Positions 44,573-59,919 of a stretch of 64,000 nt of DNA are shown piece by piece (position 1 is the stretch's first letter; every line of letters starts with the position of its first letter). A program made the position numbers and the translations under genes. The DNA is from Streptomyces sp. NBC_01335 (GTDB lineage: Bacteria > Actinomycetota > Actinomycetes > Streptomycetales > Streptomycetaceae): assembly GCF_035953295.1 (NCBI RefSeq), contig NZ_CP108370.1, positions 8,107,001 through 8,171,000 on the forward strand, written 5' to 3'. The notes beneath the pieces were generated by a model. That model was given only the letters and a program-made list of their open reading frames with translations. It searched no databases and was not told where the DNA came from.

Positions 44573-45763
44573 GTGAGACGCATGACCGAACGACCGGCGA
44601 ACGCCCACCAGGCCCACCTGCTGAGGCTGTTGCGCGACCACGGTCCCCAGTCCCGGGCGCGACTCGGCGAACAGGTCGACCTCTCGCGATCGAGACTGGC
44701 CGTGGAGGTGGACCGGCTCCTGGAGACCGGGCTCGTGGCCGCCGACGGCCTCGCCGCCTCGCGCGGCGGGCGCCGGTCCCACAACGTCCGGCTCGCACCG
44801 GGGCTCCGCTTCCTCGGTGTCGACATCGGGGCGACCTCGGTCGACGTCGCCGTCACCAACGCCGAACTGGAGGTACTCGGTCACCTCAACCGGCCCATGG
44901 ACGTACGCGAGGGCCCCGTCGCGGTCTTCGAGCACGTGCTGGATCTGGCGGCGGAGCTGAGGAAATCGGGACTCGCCGATGGCTTCGACGGCGCCGGCGT
45001 CGGAGTGCCCGGACCGGTCAGCTTTCCCGAGGGTGTTCCGGTCGCACCGCCCATCATGCCCGGCTGGGACGGCTTCCCCGTGCGGGAGGTACTCGGCCAG
45101 GAACTCGGCTGCCCGGTCATGGTCGACAACGACGTGAACCTGATGGCCATGGGGGAGCGGCACGCGGGCGTGGCCCGCTCGGTGACCGACTTCCTCTGCG
45201 TCAAGATCGGAACCGGCATCGGGTGCGGCATCGTCGCCGGCGGTGAGGTCCACCGCGGGGTGACGGGCAGCGCCGGGGACATCGGGCACATCCAGGCGGT
45301 CCCCGGCGGCCGGCCGTGCACCTGCGGCAACCGGGGCTGTCTGGAAGCGCACTTCGGCGGTGCGGCGCTCGCCCGCGACGCGACCGAAGCGGCCCAGCAG
45401 GGCCTGTCGGCCGACCTCGCGGCCCGGCTCGCGGCGAAAGGCACCCTCACGGGCGTCGACGTCGCAGCCGCCGCGGCCGCGGGGGACGCCATCGCGCTCG
45501 ATCTGATCCGCGCGGGCGGAACCCACGTCGGGCAGGTCATCGCCGGGCTCGTCTCCTTCTTCAACCCCGGCCTGGTGGTGATCGGCGGCGGAGTGACCGG
45601 CCTCGGCCACACCCTGCTCGCGGCCATCCGCACCCAGGTCTACCGCCAGTCGCTGCCCCTGGCGACCGGCAACCTGCCGATCGTCCTCGGAGAACTGGGC
45701 CACGACGCCGGAGTCATCGGTGCCGCCCGGCTCATCAGCGATCACCTCTTCTCACCCGCGTAG
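44573..45763 (+). CDS. ROK-family regulator, second copy
   Basis: A 396-residue ROK regulator directly ahead of a sugar ABC transporter, so its likely controller. The N-terminal winged helix (RARLGEQVDLSRSRLAVEVDRLL) is followed by the ROK fold: GVDIGATSVDVAVT, DNDVNLMAMGER, GDIGHIQ and the zinc motif CTCGNRGCLEA. GTG 44573 follows GAGGAGGGAC; ATG 44582 is three codons in. It is only distantly similar to the first ROK protein. Confidence 0.9.
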   Translation: MRRMTERPANAHQAHLLRLLRDHGPQSRARLGEQVDLSRSRLAVEVDRLLETGLVAADGLAASRGGRRSHNVRLAPGLRFLGVDIGATSVDVAVTNAELEVLGHLNRPMDVREGPVAVFEHVLDLAAELRKSGLADGFDGAGVGVPGPVSFPEGVPVAPPIMPGWDGFPVREVLGQELGCPVMVDNDVNLMAMGERHAGVARSVTDFLCVKIGTGIGCGIVAGGEVHRGVTGSAGDIGHIQAVPGGRPCTCGNRGCLEAHFGGAALARDATEAAQQGLSADLAARLAAKGTLTGVDVAAAAAAGDAIALDLIRAGGTHVGQVIAGLVSFFNPGLVVIGGGVTGLGHTLLAAIRTQVYRQSLPLATGNLPIVLGELGHDAGVIGAARLISDHLFSPA

Positions 45764-46139
45764 GGCGTTCCCCGCCAACGGCCCCCGGTACAGCGCACCG
45801 CACCGCCCGCACCGCCCGCACTGCTCGCACCGCCCGCACTGCTCGCACGGCCCGTACCGCCCGACCAGCACTGCCCGCTCGCCGGCACTGCCCGTACTGC
45901 CCGGCACCGCTCGTACCGCCCGCCCGGCACAGCTCCGTACGTTCCGCGCGCCTTTGCACGTTCCGCACAGGCCACCGCCGCTCCGTACCACCCGTACCGC
46001 GAGCCACCGCATCGCCGTTCCGCCGCGATCCGCACAGCGCGACCTCGTACCGCGCCCGCATGCCCGAATCCGACCCGACCCGTCACGTCCAGGTGCTCCA
46101 GTCCTGACCGAGGCCGTACGTCTGCCGAGGGGAACCCAC
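45764..46139. repeat. Low-complexity C-rich degenerate repeats
   Basis: Between the ROK gene and the ABC operon lies ~370 bp of degenerate short repeats built on CACCGCCCG, CACTGCTCG and GTACCGCCCG (densest at 45795-45935). On the + strand it is poor in G. I see no gene; the leader of the ABC operon lies at the end, with GAGGGG before its ATG. Confidence 0.6.
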
Positions 46140-47657
46140 ATGGCACTCCAGCCACCGCTGCTCCACATGTCCGGCATCACCAAGTCGTTCCCCGGTGTCC
46201 GCGCCCTGGACGGCGTCGACCTGGAGGTCCAGGCCGGCGAGGTGCACTGCCTGCTCGGCCAGAACGGTGCGGGCAAGTCCACCCTGATCAAGGTTCTCGC
46301 GGGTGCCCACCAGCCCGACACCGGCACCATCCACTGGCGCGGCGAGGCCGTGACCCTGCGCTCGCCCATCGCCGCCATGCGTCTCGGCATCGCCACCATC
46401 TACCAGGAACTCGACCTGGTGGAGCACCTGTCGGTCGCCGAGAACATCCACCTCGGCCACGAGCCGACCACCGCCGGGTTCGTGGTCAGGGGCCGAGCCG
46501 CCCGCACCTCGTCCACCGAACTCCTGCGGCGTCTGGGCCACCCCGAGATCGACCCCGCCCGGCTCGTCGGAGAACTGCCGGCCGCACAGCAGCAGATCGT
46601 GTCGATGGCCCGCGCGCTCTCCCACGACGTCCGCCTCATCGTCATGGACGAGCCGTCCGCCGCCCTCGACCCGGACGAGGTCGACAACCTGTTCCGGATC
46701 GTCGGGGCGCTCACCGCGGAAGGTGTGTCGGTGGTCTACATCTCGCACCGCCTGGAGGAGATCCGCCGCATCGGCGACCGGGTGACCGTGCTCAAGGACG
46801 GCCGGGCGGTCGCGGGCGGACTGCCCGCGGACTCCACCCCGACCCACGACATCGTCGCCCTGATGACCGGGCGGAACGTCGAGTACGTCTTCCCCCGGCG
46901 GCCACCGTCCCCGCCCGACGGGCCTCCGGTCCTGGAGCTGCGCGGGCTCGCCCGCGCAGGCGAGTTCGCGCCGCTGGACCTCACCGTCCGCCCCGGCGAG
47001 ATCGTGGGACTCGCCGGGCTCGTCGGCTCCGGCCGCTCCGAGATCCTGGAGACCCTCTACGGCGCCCGCAGACCGACGTCCGGACAGGTATGCGTCGACG
47101 GAGCGCCGTTGCGGCCGGGCAGTGTGCGCGCGGCGGTCCGGGCCGGCATCGGCCTCGCCCCCGAGGAGCGCAAGGCGCAGGCGCTGCTGATGCTGGAGTC
47201 CGTCACCCGCAACGTCTCCCTCTCCACGCTCTCCCGCTTCTCCCGCGCCGGCTGGCTCGACCGCCGCGGAGAACGGGAAGCCGCCCGCGCGGCCACCCGT
47301 GAACTGTCCCTGCGCCCCGACAACCCCTCGGTGCCCGTCCGCACCCTCTCCGGCGGAAACCAGCAGAAGGCCGTACTCGCCCGCTGGCTGCTGCGCGGCT
47401 GCCGCGTGCTGCTGCTCGACGAACCGACCCGGGGCGTCGACGTCGGAGCCCGCGCCGAGCTGTACGCGGTGGTGCGGCGGCTGGCCGACGAAGGACTCGC
47501 GGTGCTGCTCGTGTCCAGCGAGGTCCCCGAAGTACTGGGCCTCGCCGACCGCGTGCTGGTGCTGCGCGAAGGCCGTGTCGTGCACGAGGCCCCGGCCCGC
47601 GAGCTCGACGAACACCGCGTACTCGACATCGTTCTGGAAGGAAGCCCGGCATCATGA
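46140..47657 (+). CDS. Sugar ABC transporter ATP-binding protein (RbsA type)
   Basis: A 505-residue double ATPase of the CUT2 (ribose/galactose/inositol-type) importer family. Domain 1 has Walker A GQNGAGKST (~residue 40), a degenerate signature LPAAQQQ and Walker B LIVMDEPSAALD. Domain 2 has the modified Walker A LVGSGRSE (~295), signature LSGGNQQK and Walker B VLLLDEPTRGVD. The degenerate first signature and second Walker A are normal for RbsA-like proteins. ATG 46140 follows GAGGGG; it overlaps the permease start by four bases. Confidence 0.93.
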   Translation: MALQPPLLHMSGITKSFPGVRALDGVDLEVQAGEVHCLLGQNGAGKSTLIKVLAGAHQPDTGTIHWRGEAVTLRSPIAAMRLGIATIYQELDLVEHLSVAENIHLGHEPTTAGFVVRGRAARTSSTELLRRLGHPEIDPARLVGELPAAQQQIVSMARALSHDVRLIVMDEPSAALDPDEVDNLFRIVGALTAEGVSVVYISHRLEEIRRIGDRVTVLKDGRAVAGGLPADSTPTHDIVALMTGRNVEYVFPRRPPSPPDGPPVLELRGLARAGEFAPLDLTVRPGEIVGLAGLVGSGRSEILETLYGARRPTSGQVCVDGAPLRPGSVRAAVRAGIGLAPEERKAQALLMLESVTRNVSLSTLSRFSRAGWLDRRGEREAARAATRELSLRPDNPSVPVRTLSGGNQQKAVLARWLLRGCRVLLLDEPTRGVDVGARAELYAVVRRLADEGLAVLLVSSEVPEVLGLADRVLVLREGRVVHEAPARELDEHRVLDIVLEGSPAS

Positions 47658-48673
47658 CGCAGCACGCCTCCCCGCCCCGCGACAGCACCGACAAGGCGCA
47701 ACCGGCCGGCACCCTCCCCGCCTGGCGCTTCCTGGTGGCCCGCGCCGACATCCGTACCCTTTCGCTGGTCGGCGTGCTGCTCGCCCTCGTCGTCGTCGGC
47801 GGCATCACCAAACCGGACGAGTTCCTGGACACCCAGAACCTTCAACTCGTCCTCACCCAGGCATCGGTGATCGGCGTCGTCACGGTCGGCATGACCTTCG
47901 TCATCACCTCCGGCGGCATCGACCTCTCGGTCGGCGCGATCGTGGCCCTCGCCTCGGTCTGGGCGACCACGGTGGCCACTCAGGAGTTCGGTTTCCTGGG
48001 CATCCTCGTCACGGCGCTGCTCGTCGGCGTCGGATGCGGACTCGTCAACGGGGTGCTCATCTCCTTCGGCCGCATGGTCCCGTTCATCGCCACCCTCGCC
48101 ATGCTCGCCTCGGCCCGCGGGCTCGCGCTCCAGATCACCGACGGCAAGACCCAGATCGTCACCGTCGACGGGCTCCTCGGCCTCGGCGAGCGGGACTCGT
48201 ACGTACTCGGCATCCCGCCCCTCGTCCTGGTGTTCGCAGCCGTGACGGTCGTCGGCTGGCTGGTGCTCAACCGCACCACCTTCGGCCGCCGTACGATCGC
48301 CGTCGGCGGCAACGCCGAGGCGGCCCGGCTCGCCGGCATCGACGTACGCCGCCAGCGGCTCTACCTCTACCTGCTGTCCGGACTGTGCTGCGGCATCGCC
48401 GCCTTCATGCTGATCATCCTCTCCGGGTCCGGACAGAACACCAACGGCAATCTCTACGAACTCGACGCCATCGCGGCCGCGATCATCGGCGGAACCCTGC
48501 TCAGCGGGGGGCGCGGCACCATCACCGGCTCCGTGCTCGGCGTCCTGATCTTCACCACGATCACCAACATCTTCGCCCTGAACAACCTGCAGAGCGACGT
48601 CCAGCAGATTGCCAAGGGCGCGATCATCGTCGCCGCGGTGCTCGTCCAGCGCCGCACCGCGAGCACGACCTGA
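47654..48673 (+). CDS. Sugar ABC transporter permease (RbsC type)
   Basis: A 339-residue integral membrane permease, the channel of a CUT2 sugar importer, working as a homodimer with the RbsA-type ATPase. It has about eight to ten helices, with family stretches FVITSGGIDLSVGAIVALA, NTFGRR-like NRTTFGRRTIAVGGNAEAARL and AAIIGGTLLSGGRGTITGSV. Its ATG lies in the ATPase stop (ATGA). It ends 17 bp before the binding-protein gene. Confidence 0.93.
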   Translation: MTQHASPPRDSTDKAQPAGTLPAWRFLVARADIRTLSLVGVLLALVVVGGITKPDEFLDTQNLQLVLTQASVIGVVTVGMTFVITSGGIDLSVGAIVALASVWATTVATQEFGFLGILVTALLVGVGCGLVNGVLISFGRMVPFIATLAMLASARGLALQITDGKTQIVTVDGLLGLGERDSYVLGIPPLVLVFAAVTVVGWLVLNRTTFGRRTIAVGGNAEAARLAGIDVRRQRLYLYLLSGLCCGIAAFMLIILSGSGQNTNGNLYELDAIAAAIIGGTLLSGGRGTITGSVLGVLIFTTITNIFALNNLQSDVQQIAKGAIIVAAVLVQRRTASTT

Positions 48674-48690
48674 GGAAGGGGTTCACCGCC

Positions 48691-49731
48691 ATGTCACACC
48701 TCACGAGCCGCAGAGGGCTGCTCTTCGGGAGCGCCGCCATATCCGCAGGAGCGCTGCTCACCGGTTGCACGAGCAACGAGAGCAAGGACGAGAAGCCCGC
48801 CGCCGCCGAGCGGCCGGCCGCCGACGACCAGCCCGGCAAGCCGGTCACCATCGGGTTCGCCGGCCCCCAGGCCGACCACGGCTGGCTCAACGCGATCAAC
48901 GACAACGCCAAGAGCCGCGCCAAGAAGTACTCGGACGTCACCCTGGAGATCACCGAGGGCTCCAACGACACCGCCGCGCAGATAGGCCAGATCGAGACCC
49001 TGATCAACAAGAAGGTCGACGTCCTGGTGATCCTGCCCGCGGACGGCAAGGCCCTCACCCAGGTCGGGCTGAAGGCGATGCGCGCCGGCATTCCGGTGAT
49101 CAACCTGGACCGGATCTTCAACACCCCTCAGGCGTACCGCTGCTGGATCGGCGGCGACAACTACGGCATGGGCTTCAACGCCGGTCACTACATCGGCGAG
49201 AAGCTCAAGGGCAAGTCCGGCGCCCACGTCGTCGAGCTCGCCGGTCTGGACAACCTGGAGCTGACCAAGCAGCGCACCCAGGGCTTCGACGACGCCCTCA
49301 AGAACTACCCGAACGTCGAGAAGGTCGCCCGCCAGGCCGCCGACTTCACCGTCGAGTCCGGTCAGGCCAAGATGGCCCAGCTCCTCCAGGCGCAGTCGAA
49401 GATCGACGCCCTGTGGAACCACGACGACGACCAGGGCGTCGGCGCCCTGCGCGCCATCGAACAGGCCGGGCGCGACGAATTCCTGATGGTCGGTGGCGCC
49501 GGGGCGCTCTCCGCCTTCGAGGTGATCAAGCAGGACAGCGGGGTCCTGAAGGCGACCGTGCTGTACCCGCCGACGATGGCCGCCTCGGCCGTCGACCTGG
49601 CCCGCGCTCTCGGCCAGGCCAAGGGGGTCGGCGGCCTCGCCGAGTACGAGATCCCCTCGTCGATCACGCTCTACTCCGCCGTCGTCGACAAGGACAACGT
49701 CGACCAGTACATGCCCACCGGCTTCCGCTGA
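48691..49731 (+). CDS. Sugar-binding lipoprotein (RbsB type)
   Basis: A 346-residue extracytoplasmic solute-binding lipoprotein. The leader has an Arg pair (SRRGLLFG) and a lipobox LLTGC (Cys 26), followed by a Lys/Glu/Pro linker. The two-lobed periplasmic-binding fold shows TIGFAGPQADHGWLNAI, VDVLVILPADGKALTQ and VIKQDSGVLKATVLYPP. Sequence suggests a CUT2 sugar or cyclitol; the exact ligand cannot be told. ATG 48691 is preceded by GGAAGGGG. A long hairpin follows the stop. Confidence 0.92.
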   Translation: MSHLTSRRGLLFGSAAISAGALLTGCTSNESKDEKPAAAERPAADDQPGKPVTIGFAGPQADHGWLNAINDNAKSRAKKYSDVTLEITEGSNDTAAQIGQIETLINKKVDVLVILPADGKALTQVGLKAMRAGIPVINLDRIFNTPQAYRCWIGGDNYGMGFNAGHYIGEKLKGKSGAHVVELAGLDNLELTKQRTQGFDDALKNYPNVEKVARQAADFTVESGQAKMAQLLQAQSKIDALWNHDDDQGVGALRAIEQAGRDEFLMVGGAGALSAFEVIKQDSGVLKATVLYPPTMAASAVDLARALGQAKGVGGLAEYEIPSSITLYSAVVDKDNVDQYMPTGFR

Positions 49732-49738
49732 CGGGCCA

Positions 49739-49810
49739 GGCCGTGTCCGCGGCGTCCCGCCGCGCGCCCGGAAAGGGGCGCGGGCCCGGACGGATGCCGC
49801 GGACACGGCC
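49739..49810. terminator. Long hairpin between binding-protein and dehydrogenase genes
   Basis: Perfect 15-base arms GGCCGTGTCCGCGGC (49739-49753) and GCCGCGGACACGGCC (49796-49810) enclose an inner CGCGCCC/GGGCGCG pair. It likely stops or slows transcription after the importer genes. Confidence 0.75.
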
Positions 49811-49854
49811 TCCGCACCCCCACGGATCTACGAAGAGGATGAGGAGGACCCACC

Positions 49855-51063
49855 ATGGGACACCCGGAGCAGATCGAAGGGCCGGAGGCGGCGAAGCCAC
49901 CGCTCCGCGTCGGAATGGTCGGATACGCCTTCATGGGCGCCGCCCACTCCCAGGGCTGGCGCACCGTGGGCCGCGTCTTCGACCTGCCCCTGAGACCGGT
50001 CCTGGCGGCCGTCTGCGGCCGTGACGGTGGAGCGGTCCGGGCGGCGGCCGACCGGCACGGCTGGGCGAGCGCCGAGACCGACTGGCGCGTCCTGGTGGCG
50101 CGGGACGACATCGACCTCGTCGACATCTGCACCCCCGGCGACAGCCACGCCGAGATCGCGCTGGCCGCGCTGGCCGCGGGCAAGCATGTGCTGTGCGAGA
50201 AGCCTCTCGCCAACACGGTGGCGGAAGCTTCCGCGATGACCGTCGCTGCCCAAGAGGCATCCACGAAAGGGCAGTTGACGATGGTCGGCTTCAACTACCG
50301 GCGGTTGCCCGCCACGGCCCTGGCCCGCCGGATGGTGACCGAGGGAAGGATCGGCACGCTGCGGCACGTACGGGTGTCCTACCTCCAGGACTGGCTGGTG
50401 GACCCGTCCTTCCCGCTCACCTGGCGGCTGCGCAAGGAGCACGCGGGCTCCGGCTCGCTCGGCGATCTGGGCGCGCACATCGTCGACCTCGCCCAGTACC
50501 TGGCCGGCGAACGGCTGGCCGGGGTCTCCGCGCTCACCGAGACCTTCGTGCGGCGGCGCCCGCTGCCCGCCGGGCCCACCAGCGGCCTCGCCGCCGGGGC
50601 GGTGGCCGGTACCGGGGAGGTCACCGTGGACGACGCCGCCGTCTTCACCGGCCGGTTCGCCTCCGGCGCTCTCGCCTCGTTCGAAGCCACCCGCTACGCG
50701 ACCGGCCGCAAGAACGCGCTGCGCATCGAACTCAACGGAGAACGCGGGTCGCTCGCCTTCGACCTGGAGCGCCTCAACGAACTCGCCTTCCACGACGGCA
50801 CCGAACCCGGAACGCACGCCGGTTTCCGCCGGATCCTCGTCACCGAGCCCGACCACCCCTATGTGGAGGCCTGGTGGCCCCCGGGCCACGGCCTCGGCTA
50901 CGAGCACTCCTTCGTCCACCAGGCCCGCGATCTCGTGCACGCCATCGCCGAGAAGCGTGCCCCAGAACCCTCCTTCGCCGACGGGCTGCAGGTCCAGCGG
51001 GTGCTCGCCGCGGTGGAGGAGAGCGCAGAGAAGAGCTCCGTCTACACCCCGATCGCGTTCTAG
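49855..51063 (+). CDS. Gfo/Idh/MocA-family sugar oxidoreductase
   Basis: A 402-residue NAD(P)-dependent dehydrogenase of the glucose-fructose oxidoreductase/inositol dehydrogenase family. Rossmann motif [17 protein letters not shown] (~18-34), then [12 protein letters not shown] and the family's EKPLANT (~117), with the substrate-domain stretch [17 protein letters not shown]. It likely oxidises a hydroxyl of an imported sugar, glycoside or cyclitol. ATG 49855 follows GAGGAGGA. The isomerase gene starts 11 bp after its stop. Confidence 0.92.
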
Positions 51064-51074
51064 AGGAGGCCCCC

Positions 51075-52082
51075 GTGCCGCGCAGTTTCACGCTCTTCAC
51101 CGGTCAGTGGGCCGACCTCCCTCTGGAGGAGGTCTGCCGACTGGCCCGCGACTTCGGCTACGACGGCCTCGAACTCGCCTGCTGGGGAGACCACTTCGAG
51201 GTCGACAAGGCGCTCGCCGATCCCGCCTACCTGGACTCGCGGCGCGAGCTCCTGGACCGGTACCAGCTCAAGTGCTGGGGCATATCGAACCACTTGGTGG
51301 GACAGGCCGTCTGCGACGCCATCATCGACGAACGCCACCAGGCCATCCTGCCCGCCCGGATCTGGGGGGACGGCGAGGCCGAGGGCGTACGGCGGCGTGC
51401 CGCGGCCGAGATCGCCGACACCGCCCGTGCCGCGGCGGCGTTCGGCGTCGACACCGTGATCGGGTTCACCGGGTCGGCGATCTGGCATCTGGTCGCCATG
51501 TTCCCGCCCGTCCCCGAGTCGATGATCGAGCGCGGCTACCAGGACTTCGCCGACCGGTGGAACCCGATTCTGGACGTCTTCGACGCCGAAGGCGTCCGCT
51601 TCGCCCACGAGGTCCACCCCAGCGAGATCGCCTACGACTACTGGACCACCCGGCGCGCCCTGGAAGCCGTCGACCACCGGCCCGCCTTCGGACTCAACTT
51701 CGACCCCTCCCACTTCGTGTGGCAGGACCTCGATCCGGTCGGCTTCCTCTGGGACTTCCGCGACCGGATCTACCACGTCGACTGCAAGGAGGCCCGTAAG
51801 CGTCTGGACGGACGCAACGGACGGCTCGGCTCCCACCTGCCCTGGGGCGATCCCCGCCGCGGCTGGGACTTCGTCTCCGCCGGCCACGGCGACGTCCCCT
51901 GGGAGGACGTCTTCCGGATGCTGGCCTCCATCGGCTACCAGGGGCCGGTCTCCGTCGAGTGGGAGGACGCCGGTATGGACCGGCTCCAGGGCGCCCCCGA
52001 GGCCCTGGCCCGGCTCAAGGCGTTCGACTTCGACCCGCCGAAGGCATCCTTCGACGCGGCCTTCGGCACCCAGCCCTCCTGA
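51075..52082 (+). CDS. Sugar phosphate isomerase/epimerase (AP_endonuc_2)
   Basis: A 335-residue TIM-barrel enzyme of the xylose isomerase-like/AP endonuclease 2 family. Metal-binding positions fit: [24 protein letters not shown] and VDCKEARKR, and a late [15 protein letters not shown] 51075 follows GAGGAGG placed over the previous stop. In related loci this enzyme partners a Gfo/Idh/MocA dehydrogenase in 3-keto-sugar or inositol breakdown. Confidence 0.9.
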
Positions 52083-52121: not shown

Positions 52122-52259
52122 CTCAACGGCGTACGGATCAACGACTTCACCAACACCGATCCGAAACGGAGCCTGCGCGAGGGCCACCTCGGCATCCGGA
52201 ACCACGGAGCCGGTGACCAGGTGTCGTTCCGCGACATCCGGATCAAGGAACTCCAGTAG
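52122..52259 (+). pseudogene. C-terminal remnant of a DUF1080 (3-keto-glycoside hydrolase) gene
   Basis: A 46-codon open segment with no start of its own, reading LNGVRINDFTNTDP, then EGHLGIRNHGAGDQVSFRDI and a final RIKELQ before the stop. This is the conserved end of the DUF1080 (3-keto-disaccharide hydrolase) fold. The rest is absent, and the bases before 52122 do not continue the domain. It lies right after a dehydrogenase and isomerase that commonly accompany DUF1080 proteins, so it is a deletion scar. Confidence 0.75.
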
Positions 52260-52394: not shown

Positions 52395-53639
52395 ATGTCT
52401 GTCATGTCCGCGTCTATTTCCTCAGCTCGGGTGGGGGTGTGGCTGATCGGCGCCCGCGGTTCCGTCGCCACCACCACCGTCGCCGGCTGCGCCGCCGTGG
52501 CCGCCGGCCTGCACCCGCCCACCGGAATGGTCACCGAGACACCCCCGTTCGCCGCATCGGGTCTTCCGTCCCTGACTGCGCTGGTGTTCGGCGGCCATGA
52601 CGTACTGGACTGCCCGCTGCCCAAGCGCGCGGAGCAACTGGCGGCGGCCGGAGTGCTGCCGCACGGCCTCCCGGCCGCCGTGGCCACCGAACTCGCCGCG
52701 GCGGACGCGGAGATCAGGCCGGGCGGCCCGGTGGCGGGGGACGCCCGCGGCCCCGACGAGGTGATCTCCGCCTTCGCCCGGGACATCCAGGACTTCGCGC
52801 GCAGACACGGACTGGCCCGCACGGTGGTCGTCAACGTGTCGTCCACCGAGCCGGCCGCCACCGGCGCGACCCTGCCGCCCAGTTCGCTGTACGCGGCGGC
52901 GGCCCTGCGGGCCGGGTGCGCGTACGTGAACTTCACCCCGTCGACGGGCCTGCACCACCCGGAGCTGGCCGGTCCGGTGGCGGCCTCCGGCCTGCCGTAC
53001 GCCGGCCGGGACGGGAAGACCGGCCAGACGCTGCTGCGGTCCGTCCTCGGCCCCATGTTCGCCCAGCGGGCCCTGGCGGTCCGCGCCTGGTCCGGCACCA
53101 ACCTGCTGGGCGGAGGCGACGGAGCCGCCCTCGCCGACCCGGCGGCTGCCGCGGCGAAGAATGCGGGCAAGGGGAGAGTCCTCGCCGACACTCTCGGCAC
53201 CACACCGCAGGGCGTGGTGCACATCGACGACGTACCCGCGCTCGGCGACTGGAAGACGGCCTGGGACCACGTCGCGTTCGACGGCTTCCTCGGCACCCGG
53301 ATGATCCTGCAGACCCTGTGGCAGGGCTGCGACTCGGCACTGGCCGCCCCGCTGGTCATCGACCTCGCCCGACTCGCCCTGCGCGCCCAGGAAGCCGGAT
53401 TCCAGGGGCCGTTGGGCGACCTCGGGTTCTACTTCAAGGACCCGGTGGGCGACAGCCCCGCAGCCCTGGGCGAGCAGTACGCGGCCCTGCTCCGCTTCGC
53501 CGGGCGACTGCGCGAGGGGCCGGCCCGGGCCAGTACGGAGGCGGGCGCCGCCGCCACCACGCAGAAGCCCTCCACGCAGAAGCCCTCCACGCAGAAGCCC
53601 GCCGCGGAGAAGCCCGCCACCCAGGAGGCGGGGTGCTGA
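52395..53639 (+). CDS. Inositol-3-phosphate synthase-like cyclase of the Ebo locus
   Basis: A 414-residue NAD-dependent cyclase resembling myo-inositol-1-phosphate synthase, which turns glucose 6-phosphate into a cyclitol phosphate. NAD fold GVWLIGARGSVATTTVAG at the start, VVVNVSSTEP, the catalytic-Lys stretch GRDGKTGQTLLRSVLGPMF and WSGTNLLGGGDG are family marks. The last ~40 residues are a Lys/Pro/Thr repeat tail (TQKPS units). ATG 52395 follows AAGGAGG. The UbiA gene starts inside its last codons, and its RBS lies in the tail. Confidence 0.88.
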   Translation: MSVMSASISSARVGVWLIGARGSVATTTVAGCAAVAAGLHPPTGMVTETPPFAASGLPSLTALVFGGHDVLDCPLPKRAEQLAAAGVLPHGLPAAVATELAAADAEIRPGGPVAGDARGPDEVISAFARDIQDFARRHGLARTVVVNVSSTEPAATGATLPPSSLYAAAALRAGCAYVNFTPSTGLHHPELAGPVAASGLPYAGRDGKTGQTLLRSVLGPMFAQRALAVRAWSGTNLLGGGDGAALADPAAAAAKNAGKGRVLADTLGTTPQGVVHIDDVPALGDWKTAWDHVAFDGFLGTRMILQTLWQGCDSALAAPLVIDLARLALRAQEAGFQGPLGDLGFYFKDPVGDSPAALGEQYAALLRFAGRLREGPARASTEAGAAATTQKPSTQKPSTQKPAAEKPATQEAGC

Positions 53640-54730
53640 AGAGCCTGGTGCCGGCGCTCCGGTCCGCGGTGCGCCGCCCGGGCCGCCGGGCCCCCGCTGC
53701 GGACCCCGCGCCCGGACCCCGCGCCCGGCTTCTCCCGGCCCGCCCGGAGAACGGGCTCGGCCCGGAGAACGCGCCCCGCCGGACGCACCCCCGGAACACC
53801 CCGGTGGTCACACCCGCCCGCCGCGGCCCCGACCTGCGGGCCTGGGCCGAACTGCTACGCCTCCCGGCCCTGTTCACCGTTCCCGGGGACGTACTTGCCG
53901 GAGCGTCGGCGTCCGGCGGGCGCCCCGGCCCCCGCACCCTGCTGGCCATCGGCTCGTCCGTCTGCCTCTACGAGGCGGGCATGGCCCTCAACGACTGGGC
54001 CGACCGGGACGAGGACGCCGCCGAGCGCCCCCACCGCCCCCTTCCCTCCGGCCGGGTGCGCCCCGGAGCGGCCCTCGCGGCGGCCTCCGTCTGCACCGCG
54101 GCGGGCCTCGCCCTGGCCGCCCGGGCGGGCCGCCCCGCCCTCGCCGTCGCGATCCCGCTGGCGGCGGCGGTGTGGGCGTACGACCTGGGGCTCAAACGGA
54201 CCCCGGCCGGCCCGGCGGCGATGGCGGCGGCGCGCGGCCTCGACCTGCTGCTCGGTGCGGCCGCGACCGGGCCCGGTACCCGCCCCGTCCGGCACGCGGC
54301 CCCGTCCGCGGCGCTCCTCGCCGGCCACACCCTGGCCGTCACCGCGGTCTCCCGGCGGGAGACGACCGGCGGTACCCCGCTCGTACCGCTGGCCGCGCTC
54401 GCCACGGCCGGCGCCCTCACCGTGCTGCTCGGCGCACGGCCCGGTACGCGTGCAACATCCGGTACGCCCGCCCCGGCGCGGGCCGCCGGGGACCTCCTGC
54501 GCACCGGTATCGCCACCGGCTACGCCGTGACGGCCGCCCGCCCCTGCCTCCACGCGGCCCTCAACCCGTCGCCCGCCCTCACCCAGCGCGCCGTCGGCGG
54601 CGGCATCCGCGCCACGATCCCGCTCCAGGCCGCGCTCTGCGCCCGCTCCGGCGCCCCGGCCACCGCCCTGCTGACCGTCGTACTGGCCCCCCTCGCCGCC
54701 AGGTTCGCCCGGAAAGTGAGCATCACATGA
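53633..54730 (+). CDS. eboC: UbiA-family prenyltransferase EboC
   Basis: A 365-residue membrane prenyltransferase that should join an isoprenoid diphosphate to an acceptor. After a ~65-residue Arg/Pro-rich leader come membrane helices with the first Asp-rich motif NDWADRDED (~residue 120) followed by RPHRPLPSGR, and the second region YDLGLKRTPAGP. GTG 53633 has AGGAGG four bases upstream and overlaps the cyclase stop. Context in the Ebo operon gives the name; the acceptor is unknown, but a cyclitol or sugar phosphate made by its neighbours is a fair guess. Confidence 0.87.
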   Translation: MLKSLVPALRSAVRRPGRRAPAADPAPGPRARLLPARPENGLGPENAPRRTHPRNTPVVTPARRGPDLRAWAELLRLPALFTVPGDVLAGASASGGRPGPRTLLAIGSSVCLYEAGMALNDWADRDEDAAERPHRPLPSGRVRPGAALAAASVCTAAGLALAARAGRPALAVAIPLAAAVWAYDLGLKRTPAGPAAMAAARGLDLLLGAAATGPGTRPVRHAAPSAALLAGHTLAVTAVSRRETTGGTPLVPLAALATAGALTVLLGARPGTRATSGTPAPARAAGDLLRTGIATGYAVTAARPCLHAALNPSPALTQRAVGGGIRATIPLQAALCARSGAPATALLTVVLAPLAARFARKVSIT

Positions 54731-55764
54731 GCCCCCGGGCCGATCTCCCCGAGCCCTCGGCGCCTCCCGTGGGAACCGGCGCGCCGCTGCGGTTCGGATA
54801 CGGCACCAACGGCCTCGGCGACCTCCGGCTCGACGACGCCCTCGGCCTCCTCGCCGACCTCGGCTACGACGGAGTCGGACTCACGCTCGACCACATGCAC
54901 CTCGACCCGCTCGCCCCGGGCCTCGGCGCGCGTACCCGGCGCGTCGCCGGCCGGCTGGCGGGGCTCGGGCTGGGCGTGACCGTGGAGACGGGCGCCCGGT
55001 ACGTCCTCGACCCCCGGCGCAAGCACGGCCCCACCCTCCTCGACGCCGACCCCGCCGACCGGGCCCGCCGCACCGACCTGCTGCTCCGCGCCGTCAGGGT
55101 CGGCGCGGACCTCGGGGCCCACGCCGTGCACTGCTTCAGCGGGATCACCCCCGACGGCACGGACCCGGACACCGCCTGGCAGCGGCTGACGGACTCCATG
55201 GCCCCGGTCGTGGACGCCGCCGCGACCGCCGGGATCCCCCTCGCCGTCGAACCCGAACCCGGCCACCTCCTCGCCACCCTCGCGGACTTCCACCGGCTGC
55301 GCCGCGCGCTCGGCGATCCCGGGCACCTCGGCCTCACCCTCGACATCGGTCACTGCCAGTGCCTCGAACCCTTCCCTCCCGCCGACTGCGTCCGTGCCGC
55401 CGCCCCCTGGCTGCGGCACGTCCAGATCGACGACATGCGGCGCGGCGTGCACGAGCACCTGCCCTTCGGCGACGGCGAGATCGACTTCCCGCCGGTCCTG
55501 GCGGCCCTCGCCGCCACCGGCTACCAGGGCCTGACCGTCGTCGAACTGCCCCGGCACTCGCACGCGGGGCCCGAGCAGGCCACCCGGTCGCTCCCGTTCC
55601 TGCGCCGGGCCGCCCGCGCCGCCACCGCCATCCCCCGGCGAACGCCACCGGACACCGCACCCCGGCCCGACACCGCACCCCGCCCCGACAACGCGCCCCC
55701 TCCGGACAGCGCACCACCTCCGCCCGGCACGTTCACCGCCACCCCCGAAGGGAGACCCGCATGA
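54727..55764 (+). CDS. TIM-barrel sugar isomerase/epimerase in the Ebo operon
   Basis: A 345-residue xylose isomerase-like TIM barrel. Metal-site candidates are LAVEPEPGHL, LTLDIGHCQC, LRHVQIDDMRRGVHEHLPFGDGEID-type residues (HVQIDD, HEHLPFGDGE) and VVELPRHSH. The C-terminal ~40 residues are a Pro/Asp/Ala repeat tail (DTAPRP units) with no fold. ATG 54727 overlaps the previous stop as ATGA. It is separate from EboE, so this locus has two barrel proteins. Confidence 0.88.
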   Translation: MSPRADLPEPSAPPVGTGAPLRFGYGTNGLGDLRLDDALGLLADLGYDGVGLTLDHMHLDPLAPGLGARTRRVAGRLAGLGLGVTVETGARYVLDPRRKHGPTLLDADPADRARRTDLLLRAVRVGADLGAHAVHCFSGITPDGTDPDTAWQRLTDSMAPVVDAAATAGIPLAVEPEPGHLLATLADFHRLRRALGDPGHLGLTLDIGHCQCLEPFPPADCVRAAAPWLRHVQIDDMRRGVHEHLPFGDGEIDFPPVLAALAATGYQGLTVVELPRHSHAGPEQATRSLPFLRRAARAATAIPRRTPPDTAPRPDTAPRPDNAPPPDSAPPPPGTFTATPEGRPA

Positions 55765-56486
55765 CACCCCGGACCACCGCCCCGGAGGCCACCACCGCGA
55801 CCGTCCCGGACACCACCGGGCCGGCCGGCACCACCCTCGCCGCCACCTCCACCGATACGCTGCTCGCCCTGCTGCGCACCCGGCTCCACCCCGCCGCCCG
55901 TACCTGGCTGGACCGGGCCCTCGCCGACGCCACCGCACCCCCGCGCGACCACGGCCCCCTGCCCGCATGGGAGGCGCGCCTCGCCGAGGCCGGCCGCCGC
56001 TGCGGACCCACGCACGCGGACGCCACCCGGGTCCTGCTGCTGCGTACGGCCCGGGCCGACACCGACACGCTCACCCGTGTCTACCGGCAGGGCACCGCCG
56101 ACGAGCGGCGCGCCGTCCTGCACGCCCTGCCCGCCCTCGTACCGGGTCCGGACGCGCTGCCCCTCGTGGAGGACGCGCTGCGCACCAACGACACCCGGCT
56201 CCTGGCCGCCGCGGTCGGCCCCTACGCCGCCCGCCACCTGGACGCCCACGCCTGGCGGCACGCCCTCCTCAAGTGCCTGTTCACGGGGGTCCCCGTCGAC
56301 ACGGCGGCCGAGCTGGCACGACGCGCCCACGGCGACACCGAACTCGCCCGCATGCTGCGCGACTTCGCCGCCGAACGCACCGCCGCCGGCCGGCCCGTGC
56401 CCGAGGACCTCCACCGGGTGCTCTCCCTCACCGGCGCCCCGGCAACCCCGCATCCGTCGGACGACCCCCACGGCAAGGAGTCCTGA
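55761..56486 (+). CDS. eboA: EboA domain-containing protein
   Basis: A 241-residue, mainly helical protein. After a ~30-residue Thr/Ala-rich leader, the EboA-like body shows TRLHPAARTWLDRAL, WEARLAEAGRRCG and the pair LLLRTARADTDTLTRVY and LEDALRTND-like VEDALRTNDTRLLAAAVGPYA, with HAWRHALLKCLFTGVP near the end. EboA has no known activity. ATG 55761 overlaps the previous stop (ATGA). The name rests on sequence pattern and on its place before a TatD gene. Confidence 0.85.
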   Translation: MTPRTTAPEATTATVPDTTGPAGTTLAATSTDTLLALLRTRLHPAARTWLDRALADATAPPRDHGPLPAWEARLAEAGRRCGPTHADATRVLLLRTARADTDTLTRVYRQGTADERRAVLHALPALVPGPDALPLVEDALRTNDTRLLAAAVGPYAARHLDAHAWRHALLKCLFTGVPVDTAAELARRAHGDTELARMLRDFAAERTAAGRPVPEDLHRVLSLTGAPATPHPSDDPHGKES

Positions 56487-57334
56487 TGCGCCTTTTCGAT
56501 CCCCACATCCACATGACCTCCCGCACCACCGACGACTACCGGTCCATGCGCGCCGCCGGTGTGCACGCCGTCGTCGAACCGTCCTTCTGGCTCGGGCAGC
56601 CCCGGACCTCGCCCGCTTCCTTCCTGGACTACTTCGACTCCCTGCTCGGCTGGGAACCCTTCCGCGCCGCGCAGTACGGCATCGCCCACCACTGCACCCT
56701 CGCCCTCAACCCGAAAGAGGCCAACGACCCCCGCTGCGCCCCGGTACTCGACGAACTGCCCCGCTACCTCGTCAAGGACCAGGTCGTCGCGGTGGGCGAG
56801 ATCGGTTACGACTCCATGACGCCGGCCGAGGACACCGCTCTCGCCACCCAGCTCCAACTGGCCGCCGACCACGGGCTGCCCGCCCTGGTGCACACCCCGC
56901 ACCGGGACAAGCTCACCGGGCTGCGCCGCACGCTCGACCTCGTCCGCGAGTCCGCGCTGCCGGCCGAGCGGGTCCTCGTCGACCACCTCAACGAGACCAC
57001 CGTCGACCTGGCCGCCGACAGCGGCTGCTGGCTCGGCTTCTCCGTCTACCCCGACACCAAGATGGACGAGGAGCGGATGGTCGCGATCCTCCGTACCCAC
57101 GGCCTCGAACGCATTCTGGTCAACTCCGCCGCCGACTGGGGCCACAGCGACCCCCTGAAGATCCGCAAGGTCGCCGACCTCATGCTCGCCGAGGGCTTCA
57201 CCGACGACGACGTCGACCGGGTGCTGTGGCGCAACCCCGTCGCCTTCTACGGACTCAGCGGGCGCCTGAACCTGGACGCGTCCGCCACCGGACCCACCCA
57301 CGAGGGCAACAGCCTCCAGCGCGGCGGGGAGTGA
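56486..57334 (+). CDS. eboB: TatD-family hydrolase EboB
   Basis: A 282-residue metal-dependent hydrolase of the amidohydrolase/TatD group. Metal-binding residues: FDPHIHMTSR at the start, VAVGEIGYDS, LVHTPHRDK, LVDHLNETT and NSAADWGHSDP. Its ATG shares one base with the EboA stop (TGATG) and has AAGGAG five bases upstream. In Ebo operons this is EboB. Substrate unknown; a phosphoester or amide of the pathway product is possible. Confidence 0.9.
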   Translation: MRLFDPHIHMTSRTTDDYRSMRAAGVHAVVEPSFWLGQPRTSPASFLDYFDSLLGWEPFRAAQYGIAHHCTLALNPKEANDPRCAPVLDELPRYLVKDQVVAVGEIGYDSMTPAEDTALATQLQLAADHGLPALVHTPHRDKLTGLRRTLDLVRESALPAERVLVDHLNETTVDLAADSGCWLGFSVYPDTKMDEERMVAILRTHGLERILVNSAADWGHSDPLKIRKVADLMLAEGFTDDDVDRVLWRNPVAFYGLSGRLNLDASATGPTHEGNSLQRGGE

Positions 57335-57337
57335 GCC

Positions 57338-58522
57338 ATGCGCTTCCGGCATCCCGACGGTACCGTCGTCCACCTCGCGTACTGCACCAACGTCCACCCC
57401 GCCGAGACACTCGACGGAGTCCTCGCACAGCTCCGCGACCACTGCGAACCCGTACGCCGCCGCCTGGGCCTCGACCGGCTCGGCATCGGCCTGTGGCTCG
57501 CCAAGGACGCGGCAGAGGCCCTGGTGACCGACCCCGCAGCGCTCCGCGCGCTGCGTCTCGAACTCGCCCGCCGCGGTCTCGAAGTCGTCACCCTCAACGG
57601 ATTCCCGTACCAGGGATTCGGTGACCAAGAGGTCAAGTACCGGGTCTACCAGCCGGACTGGACCGACCCCGAACGGCTCCGCCACACCCACTCGCTCGCC
57701 CGCGTCCTCGCCGCGCTGCTGCCCGACGACATCACCGAGGGCTCCATCTCCACCCTGCCGCTCGCCTGGCGCACCCCCTGGGACGACCGGCGCGCGGACA
57801 CCGCCCGCACCGCCCTGCGCACCCTCGCCGAACGCCTCGACGCCCTGGAGGAAGTGACCGGGCGTTCCATCCGGATCGGCATGGAACCCGAACCCGGCTG
57901 CATCGTGGAGACCACCGCGGACGCCATCGCCCCGCTCACCGCGATCGCCCACGACCGCATCGGCGTCTGCGTCGACACCTGCCACCTCGCCACCTCCTTC
58001 GAGGACCCCGGCACCGCCCTGGACGCGCTCACCCGGGCAGGCGTCACCATCGTCAAGTCCCAGCTCTCGGCCGCCCTCGACGCCGACCGCCCCCGGCTCC
58101 CCGAGGTCCGCCGGGCCCTCGCCGCGTTCGACGAGCCCCGCTTCCTCCACCAGACCCGCAGCCGGCCGCACCCGGGTGGGGCGGCCACCGGCCCGCGCGG
58201 CACCGACGACCTCGCCGAAGCGCTGAACGGCGGCACCCTGCCCGACACGGACCCCTGGCGCGTCCACTTCCACGTCCCCCTGCACGCCGCCCCCGCCGCG
58301 CCCCTCACCTCCACCCTCCCCGTCATGAAGTCCGCCCTCGCGCGCCTGGTCGGCGGCCCCCACCCGCTCACCCGCCACCTGGAGGTCGAGACCTACACCT
58401 GGCAGGCCCTGCCGCCCGAACTGCGCCCCCGCGACCGGGGCCGGCTCGCCGACGGCATCGCCGCCGAACTCGACCTCGTCCGCGACCTGCTGAGCGACCT
58501 CGGCCTGAAGGAGCTGCCGTGA
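57338..58522 (+). CDS. eboE: Metabolite-traffic protein EboE
   Basis: A 394-residue TIM-barrel protein of the EboE group. The family N-terminus is clear (HLAYCTNVHPAETLDGVLAQL), followed by LNGFPYQGFGDQEVKYRVYQPDW, IGMEPEPGCIVET and CVDTCHLATSFED with metal-site His/Glu. The late HFHVPLHAAP and EVETYTWQALP stretches fit. ATG 57338 starts three bases after the EboB stop. EboE is linked to export of a natural product in cyanobacteria, but its reaction is unknown. Confidence 0.92.
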   Translation: MRFRHPDGTVVHLAYCTNVHPAETLDGVLAQLRDHCEPVRRRLGLDRLGIGLWLAKDAAEALVTDPAALRALRLELARRGLEVVTLNGFPYQGFGDQEVKYRVYQPDWTDPERLRHTHSLARVLAALLPDDITEGSISTLPLAWRTPWDDRRADTARTALRTLAERLDALEEVTGRSIRIGMEPEPGCIVETTADAIAPLTAIAHDRIGVCVDTCHLATSFEDPGTALDALTRAGVTIVKSQLSAALDADRPRLPEVRRALAAFDEPRFLHQTRSRPHPGGAATGPRGTDDLAEALNGGTLPDTDPWRVHFHVPLHAAPAAPLTSTLPVMKSALARLVGGPHPLTRHLEVETYTWQALPPELRPRDRGRLADGIAAELDLVRDLLSDLGLKELP

Positions 58523-59919
58523 ACGCCGAACCCGCCGGCCCGAACCCCACCCCCCTTCTCGTCCTGGACGTCGTGGGCCTCACCCCCCGCCTGCTGGAGC
58601 ACATGCCGCACCTCGCGGCCCTCGCCCGCACCGGCTCCCGCGCGAACCTCGACACCGTGCTGCCCGCCGTCACCTGCACCGCCCAGTCCACCTTCCTCAC
58701 CGGCACCACGCCCGCCGAACACGGCATCGTGGGCAACGGCTGGTACTTCCGCGAACTCGGCGACATCCTCCTGTGGCGCCAGCACAACGGCCTCGTCACC
58801 GGCGACAAGCTCTGGGACGCGGCCCGCCGCACCCACCCCGGCTACACCGTCGCCAACATCTGCTGGTGGTACGCGATGGGCGCCGACACCGACATCACCG
58901 TCACCCCCCGGCCCGTGTACTACGCGGACGGCCGCAAGGAACCCGACTGCTACACCCGGCCCCCCGCACTCCACGACGAACTCACCGCCGAATGCGGCAC
59001 GTTCCCCCTGTTCCACTTCTGGGGCCCCGGCGCCGACCTCGTCTCCAGCCGGTGGATCGCCGACGCCACCCGGCACATCCTGCGCACCCGCACCCCCGAC
59101 CTCGCCCTGTGCTACCTCCCCCACCTCGACTACGACCTCCAGCGCTACGGCCCCGACGACCCGCGCGCCCACCGCGCCGCCACCGAGCTGGACGCCGTGA
59201 TCGCACCGCTGCTGGACGACGCCCGCGCCGAGAACCGCACCGTCGTGGTCCTGTCCGAGTACGGCATCACCCCCGTCGACCGCCCCGTCCACATCAACCG
59301 CGCCCTGCGCGGCGCCGGACTGCTGGAGGTGCACACCCAGGACGGCATGGAGTACCTGGACCCGATGGCCTCCCGCGCCTTCGCGGTCGCCGACCACCAG
59401 ATCGCCCACATCTACGTACGCCGCCCCGAGGACCTGGAGGCCACCCGCGCCGCCCTCGCCGACCTGCCGGGCATCGACGTGCTCCTCGACGACGAGGGCA
59501 AGAAGGCCCACCATCTGGACCATCCCCGCTCCGGCGAACTCGTCGCCCTGGCCGCACCGGACGCCTGGTTCACGTACTACTACTGGCTCGACGACGCCCG
59601 CGCCCCCGACTTCGCACCCCTCGTCGAGATCCACCGCAAACCCGGATACGACCCGGTCGAACTGTTCATGGATCCGCTCGACCCCTACGTCAAGGTCAAG
59701 GCCGCCACCGCGCTCGCCCGCAAGAAGCTCGGCATGCGCTACCGCATGGCGGTCGTACCCCTCGACGCCTCACCCGTACGCGGCAGCCACGGCCGCCTCC
59801 CGGAACGCGACGACGACGGTCCGCTCCTCATCTGCTCCGCCCCCCACGCGGTCGGCGACCGCATCGCGGCCACCGACGTGAAGTCCCTGCTGCTCGCCCT
59901 GGCCGGCCTGCCCCGGTGA
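58519..59919 (+). CDS. eboF: Alkaline-phosphatase-superfamily phosphodiesterase EboF
   Basis: A 466-residue type I phosphodiesterase/nucleotide pyrophosphatase-like enzyme. The nucleophile Thr lies in VLPAVTCTAQSTFLTGTTPAEHG (~50-65); further metal sites fit CYLPHLDYDLQRYGPDD, VVLSEYGITPV and the late DASPVRGSHG and SAPHAVGDRI. No signal peptide is seen, so it acts inside. GTG 58519 overlaps the EboE stop as GTGA. It is the last gene of the Ebo operon. Confidence 0.9.
   Translation: MNAEPAGPNPTPLLVLDVVGLTPRLLEHMPHLAALARTGSRANLDTVLPAVTCTAQSTFLTGTTPAEHGIVGNGWYFRELGDILLWRQHNGLVTGDKLWDAARRTHPGYTVANICWWYAMGADTDITVTPRPVYYADGRKEPDCYTRPPALHDELTAECGTFPLFHFWGPGADLVSSRWIADATRHILRTRTPDLALCYLPHLDYDLQRYGPDDPRAHRAATELDAVIAPLLDDARAENRTVVVLSEYGITPVDRPVHINRALRGAGLLEVHTQDGMEYLDPMASRAFAVADHQIAHIYVRRPEDLEATRAALADLPGIDVLLDDEGKKAHHLDHPRSGELVALAAPDAWFTYYYWLDDARAPDFAPLVEIHRKPGYDPVELFMDPLDPYVKVKAATALARKKLGMRYRMAVVPLDASPVRGSHGRLPERDDDGPLLICSAPHAVGDRIAATDVKSLLLALAGLPR

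Follow-up and report, generated by a model that had tools for sequence, protein, structure and literature searches.

Ebo operons were named in 2016 and their chemistry is unsolved; in the form that encodes the cyclase EboD, the substrate is a guess from the relatives of that cyclase. A 64,000-nucleotide stretch of the Streptomyces sp. NBC_01335 genome (contig NZ_CP108370.1, 8.107 to 8.171 Mb, in an assembly of four contigs; here called the window) raises the question of what such an operon does when it begins with a different cyclase. At 52395..59919, the first of seven genes belongs to the myo-inositol-phosphate synthase (INO1) family and stands in the slot held by EboD elsewhere. We find the replacement of EboD by INO1 to be well supported, and we propose, with moderate confidence, that this is an INO1 form of the ebo operon in which INO1 and a companion TIM barrel protein fill the EboD slot and supply the shared EboC, EboB, EboE, and EboF machinery with a C6 cyclitol, presumably either inositol-1-phosphate or an inosose made from it. 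The reaction scheme that goes with this proposal is a good hypothesis, the last step of which is weakened by the data below. As the substrate and product of the INO1 family are well known, the first step of this form should be directly assayable; the exchange of EboD for INO1 and its TIM barrel would also narrow what EboC can accept, and the variant, being common in Streptomyces and also haloarchaeal, is amenable to genetics in tractable hosts. A literature search covering few subscription papers and preprints found no published description of an INO1-type ebo operon.

Operon structure and gene families

The operon consists of the following genes.

52395..53639, + strand: INO1-like cyclase of the archaeal-type myo-inositol-phosphate synthase family (PF07994, PF01658), in the slot of EboD elsewhere
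53633..54730 (start unsure: 53633 or later), + strand: EboC, UbiA-type prenyltransferase (PF01040, NF045897, Asp-rich motif)
54727..55764, + strand: xylose-isomerase-like TIM barrel (PF01261), strict companion of INO1 in ebo loci
55761..56486, + strand: EboA (NF035938)
56486..57334, + strand: EboB, TatD/amidohydrolase-like (PF01026)
57338..58522, + strand: EboE, TIM barrel (NF035939)
58519..59919, + strand: EboF, phosphodiesterase/nucleotide pyrophosphatase fold with altered metal-ligand positions (PF01663)

An earlier reading of this DNA, made from the sequence only, had described seven genes that overlap or nearly touch; all were found at these positions, with intergenic gaps from INO1 to EboF of -7, -4, -4, -1, +3, and -4 nt. 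Both domains of the INO1-like protein scored above their cutoffs (PF07994, 111 bits; PF01658, 96 bits), as did EboA (160 bits; cutoff, 50), EboB (50.5 bits; cutoff, 27), and EboE (430 bits; cutoff, 250), and the TIM barrel and EboF matched their families at 146 and 241 bits, respectively. An EboG-type model (NF035937) scored 59 bits on EboA, below its cutoff of 320. EboC matched PF01040 (83 bits) and the “SCO3242 family prenyltransferase” model NF045897 (385 bits; cutoff, 260); it reached 116 bits with the EboC model NF035940 (cutoff, 250), and its place in the locus is that of EboC in ebo operons. The GTG at 53633, its earliest start, overlaps the INO1 stop codon and is preceded by a ribosome-binding-like GGAGG, and the family model starts only at residue 70. 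Compared with the proteins of EboD-type operons, the window EboB is 39 to 58% identical (several at 48 to 58%) and the window EboF is 45 to 57% identical.

Search for EboD and a second INO1 in the host genome

The sequence-only reading had named a separate EboD in the ebo locus of the same genome as an outcome contrary to its claim, and such an EboD was searched for by profile, query, and tree. None was found in the locus, and none was detected in the genome. A PF01761 search gave four matches in the genome, three of them above the cutoff and none inside the ebo locus. With a true EboD (from Ketogulonicigenium) as the query, these latter three scored 153, 122, and 109 bits, whereas the real EboD of a Gemmatimonadota metagenome-assembled genome (MAG; G296) reached 394 bits. 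The same query scored no higher than 160 bits in any of the 13 actinomycete genomes whose ebo operon is of the INO1 type (host included) and no higher than 154 bits in 18 more Streptomyces genomes, two of which gave no match. A hidden EboD among the two non-AroB EboD-like paralogues of the host was ruled out, as both group outside 60 EboD proteins (support, 86) in a quick tree whose three parallel rows were chosen by a crude rule and include one very long branch. Because EboD was tested for and is missing, this is not a canonical EboA-to-EboF operon; it most likely works like one.

Actinomycetes require INO1 for mycothiol and phosphatidylinositol, and the gene at this locus could be an ordinary synthase for these compounds that lies here by chance. 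We regard this as extremely improbable, since it is contradicted by a second, classical INO1 at 3.945 Mb in the same genome, to which the ebo INO1 is 27% identical over 194 residues, and since the ebo INO1 scored 30.5 bits against the mycothiol-type INO1 model TIGR03450, whose cutoff is 638.

Linkage of INO1 to ebo genes among actinomycetes

The EboE model NF035939 matched 14 of 296 genomes of the phylum, 13 of them above its cutoff. The window INO1 found some INO1-like match in 202 of these genomes and matches of at least 285 bits in 13, the next score being 176, and the genomes with this ebo-type INO1 are the same 13 as those with EboE above the cutoff. All 13, counting the window as the thirteenth, have the order INO1-EboC-TIM-EboA-EboB-EboE-EboF with INO1 first. 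Two loci of the set lack an adjoining INO1, namely, L026, which is a second ebo copy of genome G128, and the locus of G279, whose EboE matches fall in two pieces and below the cutoff.

Within Streptomyces, EboE was found in 138 of 199 genomes (above the cutoff in 135) and INO1, at an E value of 1e-60, in 134 of 199. Among 150 listed EboE places, which come from 134 genomes, 116 (113 genomes) have an INO1 gene within 7 kb, upstream of EboE and on the same strand in every one of the 116. The remaining listed places comprise 20 with INO1 only on another contig, 10 with INO1 far away on the same contig, and 4 in genomes without INO1. An INO1 gene unlinked to ebo genes in relatives, which the sequence-only reading had named as an outcome contrary to its claim, was thus looked for in both phylum and genus, and linkage was found instead.

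Occurrence of the two cyclases in ebo loci

To widen the set of loci, contigs were scanned with a profile from an EboF alignment headed by the Gemmatirosa sequence. Of 583 confirmed candidates, the best 80 were kept, and no title among these names an actinomycete. Actinomycete and plasmid loci brought the set to 112, all annotated with tblastn; as the scan favors relatives of one EboF, the counts that follow are sample counts rather than natural frequencies. EboD is present in 60 of the 112 loci, INO1 with EboC in 19, and both cyclases in none, and the other 33 have neither cyclase, a partial operon, or an INO1 outside ebo. The 74 loci that contain EboB, EboC, EboE, and EboF divide into 54 of the EboD type, 16 of the INO1 type, and 4 without a clear cyclase. 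EboD and INO1 are therefore mutually exclusive at the locus level within this sample, and the extra TIM barrel accompanies INO1 in 19 of 19 loci but occurs in 0 of 60 EboD-type loci.

At the genome level, an INO1 search in 28 genomes behind the annotated loci gave some match in 12. G296 excepted, the INO1 matches in EboD-type genomes reached at most 202 bits, and the four that were included in the INO1 tree fall among non-ebo INO1. Among 200 Gemmatimonadota genomes, INO1 was found at an E value of 1e-60 in three and EboD in one, which is G296.

INO1-type ebo operons outside actinomycetes and apparent exchange of the cyclase

The exchange proved broader than the sequence-only reading had claimed, as it brings a dedicated second TIM barrel and extends to archaea; INO1 with its TIM barrel is a conserved ebo variant that reaches haloarchaea and Gemmatimonadota. 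In haloarchaea, plasmids from Halobaculum, Halocatena, and Natronococcus bear clustered genes for INO1, EboF, EboB, a UbiA-type protein, and two short TIM barrels, and no EboA or EboE-type protein was found in these three loci, which are as follows.

L074, 5109-11659: ebo-like set with INO1
L076, 5238-11539: ebo-like set with INO1
L084, 4954-11627: ebo-like set with INO1

A fourth haloarchaeal INO1 (Halomarina, L075) lies among glycosyltransferases and has no ebo context. Gemmatirosa has the order TIM-INO1-EboC-EboF-EboB plus a divergent EboE, with no EboA found in the locus, and genome G403, taken as Gemmatirosa because it has this same INO1 at identical coordinates, gave no EboD at an E value of 1e-60. 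In a second Gemmatimonadota genome (G394), EboE is divergent from EboB-EboF-EboC-INO1-TIM. One contig of a Rokubacteria MAG ends with INO1-EboC and another, unjoined, begins with TIM-EboA-EboB-EboE-EboF, which suggests the actinomycete gene order, and the variant is probably present in Rokubacteria. In an unclassified bacterium (G302), INO1 adjoins EboC.

Trees of the shared genes place both cyclases with the same lineages. In quick trees with SH-aLRT support only, the Gemmatirosa EboF groups with 33 EboD-type rows (support, 96; 79 rows in total), next to that of the G296 contig L091, and its EboB falls within a group of seven EboD-type rows (support, 100; 76 rows in total); its EboC is sister to the EboC of the EboD locus on L091 (99). 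As Gemmatirosa nests with EboD-type rows and with L091, the same EboC/EboF lineage occurs with either cyclase, and the cyclase appears from these trees to have been exchanged within Gemmatimonadota. The idea that each cyclase type goes strictly with its own EboC lineage was rejected, because the INO1 label must change three or more times on the EboC tree. Eight EboC columns that differ between the cyclase types track phylogeny, with no clear acceptor signal.

A more careful INO1 tree (46 rows) gathers the 15 actinomycete ebo proteins in one group (99/99) and places the three Gemmatimonadota ebo INO1 proteins with non-ebo INO1 (96/97). Constraining all ebo INO1 proteins together, with the Halomarina protein, was not rejected (p-AU, 0.173).

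Predicted chemistry of the INO1 form

The solved structure nearest to the window INO1 is that of Archaeoglobus fulgidus Ino1 (1u1i; 191 bits), which shares its fold family and eight active-site residues at this modest score and is not known to lie in an ebo operon; the scores against the mycobacterial enzyme and a five-membered-cyclitol-phosphate synthase were 29 and 52 bits, respectively. Each of the 23 ebo INO1 proteins compared retains all eight residues, which points to a C6 cyclitol phosphate as the likely product. D225 and D261 count among the active-site residues of INO1. Residues K274, K306, K367, N255, and D332, along with the second lysine in the K-x-x-x-K motif, have been described as important (PMC5614600), and the reaction runs through oxidation of glucose-6-phosphate, enolization, ring closure, and reduction (PMC11348189). 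Phosphate stays on the product of the INO1 reaction and is lost in the reaction of the EboD superfamily (PMC5133447).

The TIM barrel keeps its conserved acidic and histidine residues, and its profile is nearest to the uncharacterized MJ1311, to L-ribulose-5-phosphate 3-epimerase, and to IolI. Judged from this, it likely acts on the cyclitol as an isomerase, epimerase, or dehydratase, without closer specification. EboC retains its Asp-rich motif at residues 120 to 128, and we infer that it prenylates the cyclitol.

EboF aligns with nucleotide phosphodiesterases and keeps the nucleophile threonine in 107 of 108 proteins. At four positions that we take to be metal ligands in the related NPP phosphodiesterases (D, H, D, and H), it has V, Q, E, and Y in 106, 106, 108, and 108 of the 108 proteins, respectively, which disfavors ordinary phosphate trimming. 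These changes hold in EboD-type operons too, and the trimming role is further weakened because EboF is equally present there, where the cyclase superfamily already releases phosphate. The logic suggested earlier, in which a cyclitol phosphate is made, prenylated, and then trimmed of phosphate, is thus consistent with the kept residues in its first part and is not supported in its last. EboF has been called a hydrolase for a phosphate-containing substrate (PMC5133447), and the term “active site” is absent from the main text of that paper.

Therefore, we envisage the following scheme. INO1 would convert glucose-6-phosphate to a cyclitol phosphate, as its kept active-site residues suggest, and the TIM barrel, to judge from its fold and strict co-occurrence with INO1, would isomerize, epimerize, or dehydrate that product. 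EboC, with its UbiA fold and motif, would attach a prenyl chain to the cyclitol in the membrane. EboA, EboB, EboE, and EboF may then finish or organize the product and help a metabolite outward, by analogy with published Nostoc mutants of the EboD-type cluster. In a bolder version, which is tentative and rather unlikely, EboD and INO1-TIM would have converged on making one and the same C6 cyclitol, and the ebo product in bacteria, plastids, and archaea would be a prenylated lipid of the inositol or inosose type that carries oxidizable metabolites or sugars outward, with EboF noncanonical or nonhydrolytic.

Contrary evidence and an additional branch as an alternative

Several observations weigh against the replacement of EboD by INO1 or against the chemistry proposed for it. 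Both cyclases occur in the Gemmatimonadota MAG G296, which may represent a halfway state; its EboD lies on contig L091 and its INO1-TIM pair on a separate contig, L189. INO1-TIM pairs also occur without ebo genes. Twelve cyclase-less ebo loci (L026 and eleven others) were inspected, and searches of them revealed no INO1 and no EboD; 11 of the 12 have the order EboC-TIM-EboA-EboB-EboE-EboF, and L233 lacks EboC. The genomes of two of these loci, L234 and L235, have no ebo-type INO1. A classical cellular INO1 could supply such loci. In seven of the twelve, each a second, cyclase-less ebo copy (L026, L225 to L229, and L235), genes for a flavin adenine dinucleotide (FAD) oxidoreductase and a protein of the inositol monophosphatase family lie upstream, with these families tested for L026.

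With regard to chemistry, the eight active-site residues are equally kept in 23 of 23 other INO1-family rows, so that they indicate an intact active site but do not identify the exact product. EboD was placed with C7-cyclitol enzymes (PMC5133447), so that the ring made by INO1 would differ unless the substrates are other than assumed. The sole published EboC activity, that of Ubi-297/EboC from marine Flavobacteria and Saccharomonospora, is the farnesylation of quinolines such as 8-hydroxyquinoline-2-carboxylic acid (PMC9235831). That enzyme is of the UbiA type and lies in an ebo cluster, as here, but the paper describes EboD and not INO1; as all 14 acceptors tried were aromatic, the quinoline activity gives no support for a cyclitol acceptor and does not weigh strongly against one.

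These occurrence patterns fit an alternative in which INO1-TIM is an added branch that makes a second moiety, the actinomycete operon needing no dedicated cyclase or obtaining the cyclitol through some other cellular enzyme. The two cyclases of G296, the twelve copies with no adjoining INO1 or EboD, the two EboD-like paralogues and the classical INO1 elsewhere in the host, and the INO1-TIM pairs in clusters with YcaO (see below) all speak for such a branch, to which we give a modest chance. On the other side, both cyclases occur together in 0 of the 79 sampled cyclase-bearing loci, INO1 adjoins ebo in every one of the 13 genomes from the phylum sample, and no EboD-like match above 160 bits appeared in the 13 and 18 actinomycete genomes searched.

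Upstream sugar module

The locus is larger than earlier described, as a module for sugar uptake and keto-sugar metabolism lies directly upstream in relatives. In the window, 44573-52082 holds a levoglucosan-like catabolic set on the same strand as the operon, with a ROK-type regulator, a sugar ABC transporter, a Gfo/Idh dehydrogenase, and the TIM barrel here called TIM2. The upstream features are as follows.

47654..48673, + strand: sugar ABC transporter permease (read from the sequence)
48691..49731, + strand: ABC transporter substrate-binding protein (read from the sequence)
49855..51063, + strand: Gfo/Idh/MocA dehydrogenase, levoglucosan-dehydrogenase-like (NF052479, 362 bits, below the cutoff of 650)
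51075..52082, + strand: TIM2, PF01261 TIM barrel (142 bits)
52122..52253, + strand: 44-codon remnant of a DUF1080-type (3-keto-disaccharide hydrolase) gene (tblastn, 17 of 20 loci, 69 to 86% identity)

We compared 20 loci of relatives (19 from Streptomyces and one from the class), chosen for their upstream room and not at random. The permease, Gfo/Idh (at least 65% identity), and TIM2 each lie upstream of INO1 in 19 of the 20, and in 17 a DUF1080-type gene, longer than the remnant in the window, directly precedes INO1. A TIM2 copy with 60% identity stands beside INO1-TIM in Gemmatirosa, as does a ThuA/DUF1080/glucose-dehydrogenase protein in a Gemmatimonadota MAG. From this arrangement, the actinomycete operon might serve the adjoining module, making or exporting a product of keto-sugar metabolism, with INO1-TIM supplying a sugar-derived ring. 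We allow this a slim chance. Seven loci (L025, L034, L036, L074, L083, L090, and L204) have no module genes within the available stretch, and among 50 EboD-type loci of at least 15 kb, TIM2, ThuA, and DUF1080 occur in none and Gfo/Idh and the permease in one each, so that the module as a general ebo partner was not borne out in EboD-type loci. Gfo/Idh occurs in 5 of 18 control loci, and glucose-dehydrogenase-like stretches occur in 9 of the 50 EboD-type loci versus 0 of the 18 controls. The levoglucosan dehydrogenase pathway likewise combines an ABC importer, a Gfo/Idh protein, and a PF01261 lyase, but the window Gfo/Idh falls below the family cutoff and the available passages of that paper make no ebo link (PMC10066097).

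Comparison with known systems

The INO1-type operon shares its tight organization with the ebo operons of eustigmatophyte plastids and bacteria, but it lacks EboD and has INO1 and an extra TIM barrel, and the word inositol is absent from the main text of the paper that describes them (PMC5133447). The same paper mentions, as data not shown, an actinobacterial EboA joined to a xylose-isomerase-like part, which fits the TIM barrel gene here. The ebo cluster of Nostoc punctiforme, which takes part in scytonemin export, shares the EboA-EboB-EboC-EboE-EboF machinery and a recurrent link to secreted oxidizing or propeller-type proteins; it uses EboD, however, and scytonemin genes are absent at the window (PMC6282210). 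In Streptomyces coelicolor, SCO3242 and SCO3243 are a “putative transferase” beside a “myo-inositol phosphate synthase,” like EboC beside INO1, but they are given as genes of the CDA cluster, with no mention of ebo in the available passages (PMC3610822).

On a Streptomyces camelliae plasmid (L090, 3221-15447), a gene named as ScyD/ScyE family directly precedes an INO1-type ebo operon, which is followed by genes for an aromatic prenyltransferase, a methyltransferase, and a multicopper oxidase. The ScyD/ScyE-type gene and the oxidase recall, by analogy, the scytonemin link of the EboD-type operon in Nostoc.

Other clusters with INO1 or ebo genes

A second type of INO1 cluster lacks ebo genes and combines INO1 with YcaO, a methyltransferase or Gfo/Idh protein, and a TIM barrel, mostly together with glycosyltransferase-like and PIG-L-like genes. 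The INO1 proteins of these clusters form one clade (99/95). YcaO and the methyltransferase were tested with Pfam in L085 and L200, taken from the annotation in L086, and assigned by eye in the others. The clusters are as follows.

L085, 8866-17833: YcaO/INO1 cluster
L192, 9004-17658: YcaO/INO1 cluster
L199, 1426-10417: YcaO/INO1 cluster
L200, 277-10437: YcaO/INO1 cluster
L086, 6962-15143: YcaO/INO1 cluster

EboB and EboF matches were also found in a metagenome bin titled Rickettsia typhi (L161), a title that is probably a misnomer. On a Streptomyces plasmid (L082, 8995-10173), a lone EboE lies within an apparent type II polyketide cluster.

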